Positions 48,364 through 54,920 of a stretch of DNA of 64,000 nucleotides are shown here, one piece after another. The stretch comes from Planctomycetaceae bacterium. GTDB taxonomy: Bacteria > Planctomycetota > Planctomycetia > Planctomycetales > Planctomycetaceae. The notes beneath the pieces are model-generated. The model had not been told where the DNA came from. It made no database searches and saw only the letters and a list, made by a program, of their open reading frames with translations. Position 1 is the first letter of the stretch; every line of letters begins with the position of its first letter. The position numbers and the translations under genes are program-made. Location of the stretch: NCBI GenBank assembly GCA_024742875.1, contig JANSXP010000042.1, forward strand, positions 1 through 64,000, given 5' to 3'.

Positions 48364-50888
48364 CGGCGGTTTCGTTCCTGGTCAATTCGCAGGATGCCGC
48401 TGCCGGACTCCTGCACAATCTTCTGTCCCTGTGCAGAAATCGTAATCTGACAGCCAATCTGCTGATACTGGCCTGTGAGGGCGTCGCTCGTGGCACGGAT
48501 TTCAAATGTCACCTGATTGTCTCCGGGACGAATGGTGGCCGGACGCACCAGTTCCACGCCCGTGGGCAGTCGCACCAGTGTGGCGGTGGCGTTGCCGGGC
48601 AGTTCCCGAATCACTTTGACAGTGGCCGTGATCTGTCCGGACTGCCGCCGTTCAATCGCCGCGCGATCAAACGCCAGTTCCAGATAGGGGGCGGAGATCT
48701 CCAGAGGAATGGGGGGCGAGGCGACAAAGTGGTAGCCGGTCCCCCAACTGCGGTAGCCGCCACTGTCTTCCTGGGCGGTCAGCGACAGGACGTAACGCCC
48801 CGGTTTCACTCTGCTGTTGGCTTTCAGGCGGAACACGCCCCGGGATTCTCCCGGTGGAATCACGACGGGACCGGGAGTGGCAACGTCCGGCGGTGTCCAG
48901 GCGGCGTACACGCGAATCGCTTTGTCAAAGCCTTCGCGCCGTTTGACAAAGACTTCCAGGTCCAGCAGCGCATTGGCGGCCAGCGGGATACTGGGCGTCT
49001 GCACAGACACCTGAAACGGGGCTTCTTCCACCACCGCCAGCGCGCACCGCCGGGACCGGTTGTAGACAACGTTGTAACCTCCCCGGCGGGTGGTGGACGG
49101 TACGTTGTGGACAAAGCTGCCCGTGAACGACGCGGCGGGATCGGTGGGACGCAGTTTCAATTCCACCAGGCCTGCCCAGGGTTCGGCGTTCGCAGACGCG
49201 GTGAGCGTGGCCTGAGTCAGCGTTTGACCGGGAGCCAGCGGCGGACAGGAAAACGTCACGCCATCAGGCAGTCCGGTGGCATAGATTTCTATTCCGCCGC
49301 GATACCGATTACCAACGCCCGGCAGGATGCCCAGAATGTGCTCGGTGGTGTTGCCGCGATGAATGACCAGCCGATCTCGCTTGTGCGCACTCTCGCGATA
49401 GTCCGTCGGGAAGTACACAAAAGCCTGGTCGGTGTGTGGCTGGATCTCCACCCGATACACAAAGTCGGCTCCAAACAGCCGCTGGGCATCGGCAATTCCA
49501 ATCAGATAGTCGCCGTCTGTGTCCGGTTCAAAGATCGCCACCGGATCCATGCGATCCCTGATGAATCCCACCTTGTCATTGCCGTGCCAGTCGTGATCGA
49601 CCCATCGTGAATCGTCGGCCTCAATCTGAACACGGCTGCTGGTGCCTTCTGCCGGTCGAATCCACAGCCGCGCGTCCAGCGATGAGCCCAGCGTGGCTGC
49701 GTAGGTGCGGACGCGGTAGCGGGTGCCCTGTTTTGCGGAAAAGCGAAACCAGTCCGTTTTGCCCTCATGCTCAATACGACCATTGAAGGCAATCGGCAGT
49801 TCGCCGTCGTACACCTGTGCCTGTTCCGGCTGGAAATGATCGCCACCGTCTTCGAGCACGTTGGCAAAGGAAGCCACCTGGAGCCGGTTGGCGATCACAG
49901 CGCCTGTCGGGCGGTAATCCATCATGGACTGTTCAAACACACCGGGTGTGGCCGGCAGTGGCTGCTGTGCGCTGGTGTGGGTGCCGTCTGCCTCAATCAG
50001 CTGCAAAGGCACCGTCGTGCCTGCCTGTCCTCCCAGCGGATAAGTTATCATCGGGCGACGGGCGGCGCTGAAGTGGGCCGCATAAGGACGCAGTTTCCCT
50101 TCGTAGTCCATGTTCTGATGAATGTTGACATAATATGTGCCCGTGCGGGGGGCCGTCAGACTCACGATCGGATCCATATCCCGCAGCGATGTGTCATCAC
50201 AGTACGCCAGTTTCTTCTGATCGGGGTCATAGACGGTAATCGCACAATCGGTCAGTCCCCCATGAAAATGAAACCCCAGACAGGCCGACCAGACTTCCAC
50301 TGTAAGACGCTCTCCCTGCTGCAGTTCCACGGCGTAGAAATCGTGGTCCATCGTCGCGTAAGCCGGGTGGTAACCGATGACGGTGACATCCCGTTTGACG
50401 GGCTGAGCCAGATCCGGCCTGCCGTTGCCGCCGTTTGCCGTGCGATCGTGGGCCCAGTGATGTTCTTTGATGCAGGGAAACGGTGTCACCCAGAACGACA
50501 GCATTTCCGAAAGCGCCTCGTGGGTCCGCAGGCGGAAAAAGTGCTCGCCCACACGGCAGTCATCGGCGATCTTCAGCGTCAGTTCCACGGCCGTGCCCGC
50601 CGGAGTGGGACGCAGGTCCCCATGGATGTCGTGGGGAATCTGCGCTACGGGACGATGGGCAATCACTTCAATGCCGGCATCGTAAAACAGAAACTCTTCA
50701 ATCTGCTGCAGCCGGGCTCCCAGCAGCAGAGCTTTGTGTGTTGCGCCCCGCTGACCAACGGGCGGATCAATACGGCCGGCGGTGGGGCAGGAATAGGGGA
50801 AAATGCAGAAAGGCGGCTTTTCGTCAGCCACCGCTGAGACGCTGATCAGTGCCGCAAAAAAGACAAGGCACACAGGGCGACCGCTCAT
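48360..50888 (-). CDS. Secreted protein with PPC-type beta-sandwich domains
   Basis: 842 residues. Signal peptide MSGRPVCLVFFAALISVSAVA. The body is beta-rich and includes two blocks like bacterial pre-peptidase C-terminal (PPC) domains: HDFYAVELQQGERLTVEVWS with TGTYYVNIHQNMDYEGKLRP, and KTDWFRFSAKQGTRYRVRTY with TDGDYLIGIADAQRLFG. No protease domain accompanies them. Several Ig-like blocks follow (about 560-830). Such proteins are regular partners of DUF1501 and DUF1549/1553 genes in Planctomycetota. It overlaps both neighbours by 4 bp (ATGA at 50885-50888 and 48360-48363), strong evidence for coupled translation. Confidence 0.85.
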   Translation of the reverse strand: MSGRPVCLVFFAALISVSAVADEKPPFCIFPYSCPTAGRIDPPVGQRGATHKALLLGARLQQIEEFLFYDAGIEVIAHRPVAQIPHDIHGDLRPTPAGTAVELTLKIADDCRVGEHFFRLRTHEALSEMLSFWVTPFPCIKEHHWAHDRTANGGNGRPDLAQPVKRDVTVIGYHPAYATMDHDFYAVELQQGERLTVEVWSACLGFHFHGGLTDCAITVYDPDQKKLAYCDDTSLRDMDPIVSLTAPRTGTYYVNIHQNMDYEGKLRPYAAHFSAARRPMITYPLGGQAGTTVPLQLIEADGTHTSAQQPLPATPGVFEQSMMDYRPTGAVIANRLQVASFANVLEDGGDHFQPEQAQVYDGELPIAFNGRIEHEGKTDWFRFSAKQGTRYRVRTYAATLGSSLDARLWIRPAEGTSSRVQIEADDSRWVDHDWHGNDKVGFIRDRMDPVAIFEPDTDGDYLIGIADAQRLFGADFVYRVEIQPHTDQAFVYFPTDYRESAHKRDRLVIHRGNTTEHILGILPGVGNRYRGGIEIYATGLPDGVTFSCPPLAPGQTLTQATLTASANAEPWAGLVELKLRPTDPAASFTGSFVHNVPSTTRRGGYNVVYNRSRRCALAVVEEAPFQVSVQTPSIPLAANALLDLEVFVKRREGFDKAIRVYAAWTPPDVATPGPVVIPPGESRGVFRLKANSRVKPGRYVLSLTAQEDSGGYRSWGTGYHFVASPPIPLEISAPYLELAFDRAAIERRQSGQITATVKVIRELPGNATATLVRLPTGVELVRPATIRPGDNQVTFEIRATSDALTGQYQQIGCQITISAQGQKIVQESGSGILRIDQERNRR

Positions 50889-52216
50889 GCCAGCAGGCCC
50901 TCCACCACGTTTCCGCCGTCGATAATTTCAATCGGCCGCGCGCCTGCTGCCATCAGTTCCTTGTCGGAATTGATGCCAATCAGTTTGTACAGCGTGGTCT
51001 GCAGGTCGCTCAGCGGAACGGCGTCACGCGCTACATCGGAACTGGTGGCATCGCTGTCGCCGTAGAAGACGCCCGGTTTCAGTCCGCCGCCCGCCATGGC
51101 CAGCGAGAACACGCGCGACCAGTGATCACGACCCGCCACCTTGTTGATTTTGGGCGTGCGCCCCATTTCCGAAACCACCCAGACCAGCGTGTTCTGCAGC
51201 AGGCCACGATCTTCCAGATCGGCAATCAAGGCGGCAAACGCCTGATCGAAAGCCGGCATGTTCAGTTCAAAGTTCTTTTTGATCTCCTGATGGTGGTCCC
51301 ATTCGCCATAGCTGAGCGACACAAAGCGAACGCCGGCCTCCACCAGTCGCCGCGCCAGCAGCATCCGCAGGCCGGCCTGGGAACCGGCCTGCTGAAACTG
51401 ACCGCGGCCATAGGCGGTTTTCGTCTGTTCCGATTCCTGTGACAGATCGAAGGCATCCCGCACCTTTGCGGAACGGATCATGTCGTACGCTTTTTGGTAA
51501 TAGGCATCCATGGTGTCCAGCGGCGCCGCCGCCGTTTCCCGCTGCCGGAATTTGCTGTTGATGGCTTCGCGGATCCGCTGGCGGTGCGCGAATGTCTTCA
51601 GGTCCAGCCCTTCCGGTAGCGTGAGATCACGAATCTGAAACCCGTCCTGTGCCGGATCACCGCCGGTGGTGAACGGGCCGTACTGCGCGCTCAGATAACC
51701 AGTTTCGTCTTTGGCCTGTCCAATGGCGATGTAGCCGGGCAGTGCTGAACGAGGGCCGAACTCATGGTTGACCACCGCTCCCATGGTGGGATGTTTGAGT
51801 GCAGGGGTGACCTGATAGCCCCGCAAAATGTGATAGGTGGCCTGGCCGTGATCGGGCACTTTGCCAATCACTGAACGCACGACCGTCAGGCGATCTGCAA
51901 TCTTTGCTGTTTGCGGCAGCAGTTCCCCCAGCACGACGCCCGGGATCGGGGTCTGGCAGACTCCCAGAGGTCCGCGATATTCCAGCGGAGATTCCGGTTT
52001 CGGGTTCCACGCCTCCTGTGCTGACACCCCTCCGCCGAGGCGAATCTGAATGACGCTCTTCGCGGGACCTTCCACAGAATCGTACCGTTTCTGGTCGGCC
52101 TCCACACGAAGCATTTTTCCCAGCGACAGACCACACGCCAGTGAGCCAATCTGCAGTGCACCGCGACGTGTCAGCCGTTTGGTACGTCGATGATCAGCAC
52201 AGCCGGAAATTCTCAT
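50885..52216 (-). CDS. Secreted DUF1501 protein
   Basis: 443 residues from ATG 52216, with gagggg 7 bases upstream; an open frame to 52366 is discarded because the twin-arginine leader (TRRGALQIGSLACGLSLGKM) then starts the protein properly. DUF1501 signs are VIQIRLGGGVSAQEAWNPKP, VVRSVIGKVPDHGQATYHIL, HPTMGAVVNHEFG, FVSLSYGEWDHHQ and VWVVSEMGRTPKINKVAGRD HWSR. The family has an alkaline-phosphatase-like fold and is Tat-exported. It heads the four-gene unit running to 44576. A broken DUF1501 gene also exists at 36.1-36.4 kb. Confidence 0.92.
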   Translation of the reverse strand: MRISGCADHRRTKRLTRRGALQIGSLACGLSLGKMLRVEADQKRYDSVEGPAKSVIQIRLGGGVSAQEAWNPKPESPLEYRGPLGVCQTPIPGVVLGELLPQTAKIADRLTVVRSVIGKVPDHGQATYHILRGYQVTPALKHPTMGAVVNHEFGPRSALPGYIAIGQAKDETGYLSAQYGPFTTGGDPAQDGFQIRDLTLPEGLDLKTFAHRQRIREAINSKFRQRETAAAPLDTMDAYYQKAYDMIRSAKVRDAFDLSQESEQTKTAYGRGQFQQAGSQAGLRMLLARRLVEAGVRFVSLSYGEWDHHQEIKKNFELNMPAFDQAFAALIADLEDRGLLQNTLVWVVSEMGRTPKINKVAGRDHWSRVFSLAMAGGGLKPGVFYGDSDATSSDVARDAVPLSDLQTTLYKLIGINSDKELMAAGARPIEIIDGGNVVEGLLA

Positions 52217-52614
52217 CAGGCACCCCTCTGTTGTGACTCGCAATTCGCAGATCCCCCAGTCTATCGCAGCCGTTCGCAACAGCCAAATACTCTCGCCCGG
52301 GGGGGCGCTGGCCGTCCGGAATGTCACAAGATGGTTGCCGTGCCATTCGCATTCGACGGCCACCATTCACCGGACTGCGAACGATCCGTTGGACGGTATC
52401 AAAGCGAACGACTTCGATGTGTTCACCGAGTTTGGAGAAAACGAGACAGACCGTGTTACGACGTTCCATCGCAGGCTCCAGGTTTATGGCACGCAACAAG
52501 TTAGGGTCGCGTTGGGTCGAGGTCGCCGCACTGCATGTCGCCGCATGTGGTGGGAATGGTGGCCATATGTACTGTGGAGACATGAAGAAATATGTGTAAG
52601 GCAACACGGATGAG
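52217..52614. other. Intergenic region before the DUF1501 operon
   Basis: 398 bp between the DUF1501 start and the coiled-coil remnant. It should hold the operon promoter (leftward). I see no gene or clear motif. Confidence 0.5.
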
Positions 52615-52908
52615 CTGGAATGAGGCCACTTCAACTTTCAAAGACTCGTTCGCCTGACGCAGTATTTCATTCGCTGACTCCTTTTCCGCCAGGCTCTCAG
52701 CTACACTCCGATTCTCCCGATTCAGCTTATGGATTGTGGCGTTCAGCTGCTTCGTTTCTGTGAGCGAGGCATCAAGCATTCGCTGTGTTTGTCTGGCTGA
52801 CGCTTGAGTTGTTTCCAGCAGTTCATCAACACGGCTGTTTTCCGCACCCTGCTGCTGTATCTGAGTGCCCTGTTCGGCCAACGTTTCGCGTTGATCCTCG
52901 ATAAAGAG
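52615..52908 (-). pseudogene. Coiled-coil gene fragment in inverted orientation
   Basis: The minus frame from about 52908 to 52615 encodes a good coiled coil: FIEDQRETLAEQGTQIQQQG, then RVDELLETTQASARQTQRML and KLNRENRSVAESLAEKESAN, NEILRQANESLKVEVASFQ. After Q at 52615 the sequence turns into non-coiled residues. There is no ATG at its beginning (a TTG at 52881 at best). It abuts, head to head, the plus-strand coiled coil that begins near 52911. This suggests that both pieces come from one gene and that this segment was flipped. Confidence 0.55.
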
Positions 52909-53348
52909 TCTGGCAGGGGCAGTACGAGTCGAGACTGACAGAGTATCGATCTGACGTTAAGGGGGCGGTTGAAAAATCTACCGACGATATTCGAACGGCG
53001 GTAGCCACTGCACAAAGGGCGGTGGACGGCACTGTGAAACGAACAGTGGCAGAGGTTGAATGCCGGATCAATAATAATCTGCAGGATCCTCGAGCATTCA
53101 TCAGCGTTGTGCAGCCCGATCTGCAGGCGCTGAAATCTGCTTTGGCCATACAGAACCAGCAGTGTGATCAGCTCGCACGGGATGCGTCCACACAGCGGCA
53201 GGCCATTATTCGCCAGCTCGATGACTGTGGACGCGAATCCACAAAATCGCATGAGTCCGTAATCCTGCTGGTGAAGGACGGCAACAAGCGGCTGGAAGAC
53301 GCTATTGAGCGGCGACGGCACGAATTTGAACTGTGGAAACTGGTCTAG
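52905..53348 (+). pseudogene. 5' part of coiled-coil gene, ended by an in-frame TAG
   Basis: The plus frame is open from 52905 with coding-like residues QGQYESRLTEYRSDVKGAVE, KSTDDIRTAVATAQRAVDGT and NNLQDPRAFISVVQPDLQAL up to EDAIERRRHEFELWKLV, then TAG at 53346-53348. The same frame goes on without a break in style as ENQNSRLQEEFDRIRQQIRQ into the next gene, so the TAG splits one coiled-coil frame. No ATG or ribosome site is present at the 5' end; the only candidates are GTG codons (53022). Probably the dead front half of the 53445-54920 gene. Confidence 0.6.
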
Positions 53349-53444
53349 GAGAACCAGAACTCTCGGCTTCAGGAAGAGTTCGACCGCATCCGACAGCAGA
53401 TTCGCCAAAGCCGCGATGAGATCGATCAGTTCATCAAAAAGTCA

Positions 53445-54920
53445 ATGGCCGAATGTGGTCTGGCGTGCAAAGAGATTACCCGCAAATTGCAGCCTTTGCA
53501 GGCAGCCATGAACACGATTGATCGACGTCTGAATGACCTGGAAAGTGTGATGTGTGACATCACTGGCAACATTCAGAACGCGGAGGGCGTGAGTGCCAAA
53601 GGCTTCTCCAGTGTGATCCATCAGTTTGAGCGGTTTCAGGATGCTCGTCGCGTCGACACAGAGCGAGCACGCGACGACCTCTCCCAACTGCGCGACCTGA
53701 TCAGCCAGGTGTGTCAAACGCCAGCGGGAGACGAGAGTATTGCCGAGGAGTTACGGTCTCAGCTGCGTGATGCCCAGCGGCTGATGGACAATCTCACGCT
53801 AAGGCTGCATCAGGCCGAAAAAGAGGCCAGCGTGGCCAACGAAAAAGTGGTGGGCGCACTGCGAGAAATGAAGCTGGCCTCCGGCGGCCCGGATACAATC
53901 ATTGGGCCTACGGTGACGCCTACGACCGCGTCGCCGGTTGGTGGAGGGCCGTCTGCCCCTGCTGCTGCGGCCGGGCCTGCTGGCGGAGGCGCTGGTCCTG
54001 GTGGAGCAGCGGCCGGCCCAGGCGGCAGTCCGTCAACGGCAGGCAGTCCAGTCGCTGGGGGCAGTCCGGTGGCCGGCGGTAGCCCCGCCAGCGGCGGAAG
54101 TCCGGCCTCTGGCGGGAGTCCTTCGACGGGGGGCAGTCCGGCAGTTGGAGGCAGTCCCTCGCCCGGTGGCAGTCCATCGACGACCGGCAGTCCGGCAGTT
54201 GGAGGCAGTCCCTCGCCCGGTGGCAGTCCATCGACGACCGGCAGTCCGGCAGTTGGGGGTAGCCCCTCGCCCGGTGGCAGTCCGTCGACGACCGGCAGTC
54301 CGGCAGTTGGCGGCAGTCCTTCGACGGGAGGCAGCCCAGCAGTCGGCGGCAGTGCTGCCGTTGCTGGAAGTTCAGTCGAGGGACGAAGTGCGTTTGCTGG
54401 CATCAATGGAGTCGTCGGACAGACAACTGCTACTGAATCAGACGAGTCAGCAGTTGACGAGTCAGCAGTTGATGAGTCAGAAGTTGATGAGTCAGAAGTT
54501 GATGAGTCAGAAGTTGATGAGTCAGAAGTTGACGAGTCAGAAGTTGACGAGTCAGAAGTTGACGAGTCAGAAGTTGACGAGTCAGCAGTTGATGAGTCAG
54601 AAGTTGATGAGTCAGAAGTTGACGAGTCAGAAGTTGACGAATCGGCCGCTGACCAGACGTCCACGGTTGATAAACTGACCATCATCAAAGGACTGGGCGA
54701 AGCGGCTATGGCGAAGCTCGCAGCCGAGGGCATTTCGACGTTCGCTGAACTGGCCACCGCGCAGTCCGATCGGATCCGCGAGATCGTGGGTAATCGTTTC
54801 CAGTTTGTCGATTCCTGGCCAGATCAGGCGAAATTCGCCTTCGATCAGGAATGGGACAAACTGGAGCAGTTGAAAGAGAGCCTGGAGTCCAGCGCCACTG
54901 ACGAGGACGCCTGGCATTAA
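53445..54920 (+). CDS. Coiled-coil, tandem-repeat, helix-hairpin-helix protein
   Basis: 491 residues from ATG 53445, in frame with the coiled coil before the TAG at 53346. Residues 1-145 are coiled coil (LQPLQAAMNTIDRRLNDLES, then RSQLRDAQRLMDNLTLRLHQ). About 150-310 is low-complexity Gly/Ser/Pro (GGSP units). About 333-402 is 14 repeats of D-E-S-E/A-V, extremely acidic. The last about 75 residues are a helix-hairpin-helix domain of the DUF4332/HHH_5 type (KLTIIKGLGEAAMAKLAAEG, ISTFAELATAQSDRIREIVG) that in relatives binds DNA or protein. There is no signal peptide or membrane helix in the intact part. Whether it is still expressed is uncertain, as no ribosome site precedes this ATG. Confidence 0.65.
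   Translation: MAECGLACKEITRKLQPLQAAMNTIDRRLNDLESVMCDITGNIQNAEGVSAKGFSSVIHQFERFQDARRVDTERARDDLSQLRDLISQVCQTPAGDESIAEELRSQLRDAQRLMDNLTLRLHQAEKEASVANEKVVGALREMKLASGGPDTIIGPTVTPTTASPVGGGPSAPAAAAGPAGGGAGPGGAAAGPGGSPSTAGSPVAGGSPVAGGSPASGGSPASGGSPSTGGSPAVGGSPSPGGSPSTTGSPAVGGSPSPGGSPSTTGSPAVGGSPSPGGSPSTTGSPAVGGSPSTGGSPAVGGSAAVAGSSVEGRSAFAGINGVVGQTTATESDESAVDESAVDESEVDESEVDESEVDESEVDESEVDESEVDESEVDESAVDESEVDESEVDESEVDESAADQTSTVDKLTIIKGLGEAAMAKLAAEGISTFAELATAQSDRIREIVGNRFQFVDSWPDQAKFAFDQEWDKLEQLKESLESSATDEDAWH
54021..54361 (+). repeat. GGSP-coding tandem repeats with a 54-bp higher-order unit
   Basis: Units of 12-18 bp encode G-G-S-P-x-x. Within about 54132-54310 an 18-residue, 54-bp unit (GGSPSPGGSPSTTGSPAV) is present three times almost unchanged, which points to recent unequal exchange. 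Confidence 0.9.
54441..54650 (+). repeat. Fourteen 15-bp tandem repeats coding D-E-S-E/A-V
   Basis: gacgagtcagaagtt-type units run without interruption from 54441 to 54650, exactly 14 x 15 bp. Variants differ at GAC/GAT and GAA/GCA. The array keeps frame, so length changes would not break the protein. Confidence 0.95.

Follow-up and report, generated by a model that had tools for sequence, protein, structure and literature searches.

Two coiled-coil reading frames lie head to head in the window, by which we mean the whole 64,000-nucleotide stretch of DNA analysed (contig C57, one of the 168 in a draft genome of 8.18 Mb). They raise the question of whether one gene was broken here by a flipped segment and a stop codon, as the original prediction held, and whether the segment is a switch or the trace of a single event. 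The neighbouring genes are of planctomycete type, with DUF1549/DUF1553, PPC and DUF1501 genes on the left and a ThuA gene on the right. The DUF1501 protein is encoded at 50888-52366; the genus genomes carry tens of DUF1501 copies each, and the number of matches per genome at E<=1e-3 ranged from 63 to more than 160 across the window genome and the genus genomes.

The leftward half of the locus consists of two parts:
52615-52908, minus strand: S, a coiled-coil piece of 98 codons, presumably flipped; stop-free, coding-like, modelled as one helix, single copy
52501-52614, minus strand: continuation of the S frame, a hydrophobic tail by Kyte-Doolittle (KD) score that runs to the stop; codon score mostly negative

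A 98-codon coiled-coil piece reading leftward from 52908 had been predicted, and we found it to be a stop-free, coding-like, helical frame. From L (52908) to Q (52615) it reads LFIEDQRETLAEQG...NESLKVEVASFQ with no stops. Codon preference was coding-like in this minus frame from about 52911 to 52620, the signal ending near these two positions, and the other frames there all contain stops. AlphaFold2 predicted S alone to form a single continuous helix (pLDDT 90-97). The first in-frame start is TTG 52881, with coil text upstream of it. Past S, the minus frame turns into a non-coil tail, LIRVALHIFLHVS..., which ends at a stop at 52501-52503. The mean KD value of this tail over 19 residues was 1.46, and 1.3 was reached by approximately 4% of shuffled stop-free frames. 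The tail may have arisen by chance in intergenic DNA, or it may belong to a membrane segment that was turned together with S. Because the minus frame just beyond S is hydrophobic, the flipped piece may reach left of 52615; on the other hand, the codon score of the tail speaks against such an extension.

The rightward half is a single long frame, B, interrupted once:
52905-53348, plus strand: B1, the coiled-coil frame up to the TAG, with no start codon ahead of GTG 53022
53346-53348, plus strand: in-frame amber codon TAG, after which the coil resumes directly in the same frame (KLV*ENQNSRLQEEF)
53349-53879, plus strand: B2, remaining part of the coil; taken together, B1 and B2 align with the second coil of the related proteins from genomes G013 and G073

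The plus frame follows an in-frame TAA (52902-52904) and opens with RVWQGQYESRLTEYR... The rightward coiled-coil frame had been placed from about 52911; the frame is there, but position 52911 encodes W, and the coil text begins three codons later, with QYESRL at 52920. The earliest in-frame start is GTG 53022, 34 codons into the coil. Because no start covers either coil, both S and B seem to miss their natural 5' ends. The TAG at 53346 and the continuation beyond it in the same frame are as predicted: the frame remains open until the TAA following 54917, and the 491 codons cited for it are the count from ATG 53445. Open frame and coil are present on both sides of the TAG, and AlphaFold2 modelled the plus frame as helical from residue 2 on, including the TAG site, at low confidence.

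Downstream of the coil, the frame carries repeat linkers and a terminal domain:
54018-54374, plus strand: 18-nt repeats forming a GGSP-type linker (family D1, by repeat search)
54396-54695, plus strand: 15-nt repeats forming a DESEV-type linker (family D2, by repeat search)
54651-54920, plus strand: C-terminal helix-hairpin-helix (HhH), HHH_5-like (Pfam PF14520, E=1.4e-4, below the curated cut-off)

On the antisense strand, too, the repeat-linker region has an open frame, an ORF of 315 codons at 53810-54757. The genus contains a second HhH family (L088, L089, L090, L091, L094), whose members have a common N-terminus, ELKREWTDKYV...VGQVKTVNMNCRLLIQFDTPADISWYD, and many SPLDQIR-type repeats; its HhH domain is similar to the one in the window gene. 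We considered these HhH matches as informants on S and set them aside as members of another protein family, the one with SPLDQIR repeats.

Could the two halves simply be two divergent genes, a minus-strand protein of 126 aa (TTG 52881 to 52501) and a truncated, nonsense-mutated rightward coil gene? The minus ORF stays open through its hydrophobic tail and could be a tail-anchored coil, and there are 140 bp between the possible starts. Nevertheless, coil text precedes both of these starts, leaving scarcely any DNA between the two coils; the codon score drops in the tail; and the small ORF (coil plus hydrophobic tail) had no homologue in our searches of genomes and GTDB contigs. We regard two genes as quite improbable.

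The reading we favour, as somewhat likelier than the alternatives together, is that a single gene was broken by a one-time inversion and a nonsense mutation and is now probably a pseudogene. The ancestral gene would have encoded a long coiled-coil protein ending in an HhH domain. Within it, some 270-360 bp carrying part of the N-terminal coil would have inverted once, with short or no homology. A nonsense codon would have arisen at 53346, and the remnants would be unable to make the original protein; the most that could still be made is predicted to be the 491-aa C-terminal part that starts at ATG 53445. The window gene has both an interrupted frame and a lost 5' part, as would be expected of a pseudogene. 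By contrast, the plus frame is open for more than 2 kb without a frameshift, which counts against long decay.

We then asked what re-inversion would restore. Near the ends of S, there is a sole 7-bp inverted repeat:
52643-52649, plus strand: GACTCGT, left arm, at chance level
52924-52930, plus strand: ACGAGTC, right arm and exact partner of the left arm

No flanking inverted repeat rose above chance, the longest being 7 bp (162/500 shuffles). Re-flipping 52650-52923, between the two arms, gave an ORF from ATG 52620, MRPLQLSKTRTAPARLFIEDQRE...QANES-RLTEYRSDV..., up to the TAG. Re-flipping 52612-52919, close to the segment originally proposed, gave a continuous S-to-B frame starting at ATG 52545. 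Overall, 28% of breakpoint pairs yielded an ATG-started, stop-free S-to-B frame. We dropped the idea that re-flipping never yields a start, as the breakpoint scan often gave one, and we likewise rejected the 7-bp repeat as a proven breakpoint, as its ATG-started frame is equalled by that share of arbitrary pairs and its join has the worse coil periodicity. At the exact join that had been proposed, VEVASFQ to QYESRL, the periodicity stays reasonable. On the other hand, that exact join is not supported: the related proteins have a hydrophobic segment at this place, and the breakpoints may be others, such as the 7-bp repeat (52643/52924) or a pair whose left end is near 52550. Because many breakpoints give frames, the left end is limited to approximately 52501-52650 and the right end to approximately 52908-52930.

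Invertons are described in one account (PMC11892184) as having inverted repeats of 10-40 nt, and intragenic invertons, cited there from Chanin et al. 2024, are phase-variable inversions. The locus is similar in that turning a segment within the gene would alter the protein. It differs in that flanking repeats of 10-40 nt are absent, there is an extra stop codon, and the one assembly of the species shows a single orientation. Since no flanking inverted repeat exceeds chance, the suggestion that the inversion is perhaps phase-variable found no support. The flip at GACTCGT/ACGAGTC does yield an ATG-started, in-frame S-to-B ORF, as a switch caught by the assembly in its OFF state would. Nevertheless, the TAG would stop the product in either orientation, the repeat falls short of the length stated for invertons, and none of the ten flanking proteins scanned (37.6-63.1 kb) has a recombinase domain. 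A phase-variable intragenic inversion is therefore very unlikely, and an invertible segment that uses only the 7-bp repeat, rewrites the N-terminus and has its amber codon read through is hardly credible.

For evidence on the ancestral order, we turned to homologues. S and B are each single copy in the genome. No orthologue of either was recognisable in 170 family genomes, and none spanning the S/B junction was found in the genus, the family, a 397-genome class sample, GTDB contigs, IMG/VR or plasmids, so the ancestral order is not directly visible. The ThuA and DUF1501 neighbours, used as anchors for synteny, led only to relatives of 50-54%, with no close orthologue for comparison of the gap. 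The locus thus resembles pseudogenes made by a small inversion and a nonsense codon in its opposed gene pieces, in-frame stop and single copy, but differs in that the ancestral order is shown by no intact orthologue.

The only similar proteins were three from the same bacterial family, in genomes G073 (L095:2056-5193, minus strand), G013 (L100:1574-5126) and G103 (L110:1970-4039). The HhH domain led to the 1045-aa G073 protein, from which the other two were found. Their layout is a signal-peptide-like start, a VWA-like domain, a coil, a hydrophobic segment, a second coil and HhH. We read the N-terminal domain as VWA-like from a DATSS motif and the fold pattern; a sequence search of Pfam and PDB gave no VWA match for it. 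The window gene shares the HhH C-terminus, and B resembles the second coil: none of 200 heptad-preserving shuffles matched G013 as well, and 4.5% did so for G073. S matched the first coil weakly (heptad-shuffle p of about 0.03-0.04), and it also had some similarity to the second coil in G013 (score 63, p 0.09). The last 20-30 residues of S (ANEILRQANESLKVEVASFQ) fit the end of the G073 first coil (AQLISNEEKEALKGELQVFQ), a fit equalled by 0.02% of slid windows at a site picked after the fact.

The relatives thus place an S-like coil before B, as a flipped segment predicts, with the qualification that the S match is weak and a hydrophobic segment intervenes. Between their two coils lie approximately 40 residues with a hydrophobic stretch, which a plain S-B join lacks; here, the weakly matching S is followed by its hydrophobic tail on the minus strand. 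A VWA-like N-terminus was found neither in the window nor in the window genome (two-sequence profile, E<=1e-8), and the window gene has no clear membrane segment and carries long repeat linkers. Simply turning the segment back leaves the layout of the relatives incomplete: there is no VWA-like N-terminus, and the hydrophobic segment is either missing here or lies partly within the flipped piece. Either the window gene differs from its relatives, or more than an inversion took place.

A local assembly or sequencing error, with about 300 bp misoriented, a base miscalled at 53346 and the real gene intact, has several points in its favour. The genome is a draft, the frame is otherwise clean across 2 kb, and a hydrophobic segment and 5' part like those of the relatives occur nowhere in the assembly. 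Against this, there are no Ns, no duplicated ends and no long junction repeat to mislead an assembler; two independent defects would be required, and the locus lies mid-contig. We consider such an error unlikely. That one repeat-rich gene underwent an inversion and acquired a nonsense codon, as originally proposed, remains the best reading, given the missing 5' ends, the re-flipped frames and the order in the relatives. Our inference has three parts: S and B once belonged to the same gene, an inversion turned S around, and the gene no longer functions.

Overall, the locus looks like a species-specific gene in decay of the ordinary kind, or else like a slip in the draft assembly; no sign of a working switch was seen. 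It is then one more broken, fast-evolving coiled-coil gene, with some value as a case of a small inversion within a gene peculiar to one species, and it draws attention to a VWA-like/coil/membrane/coil/HhH protein group, so far unnamed, of the same bacterial family.
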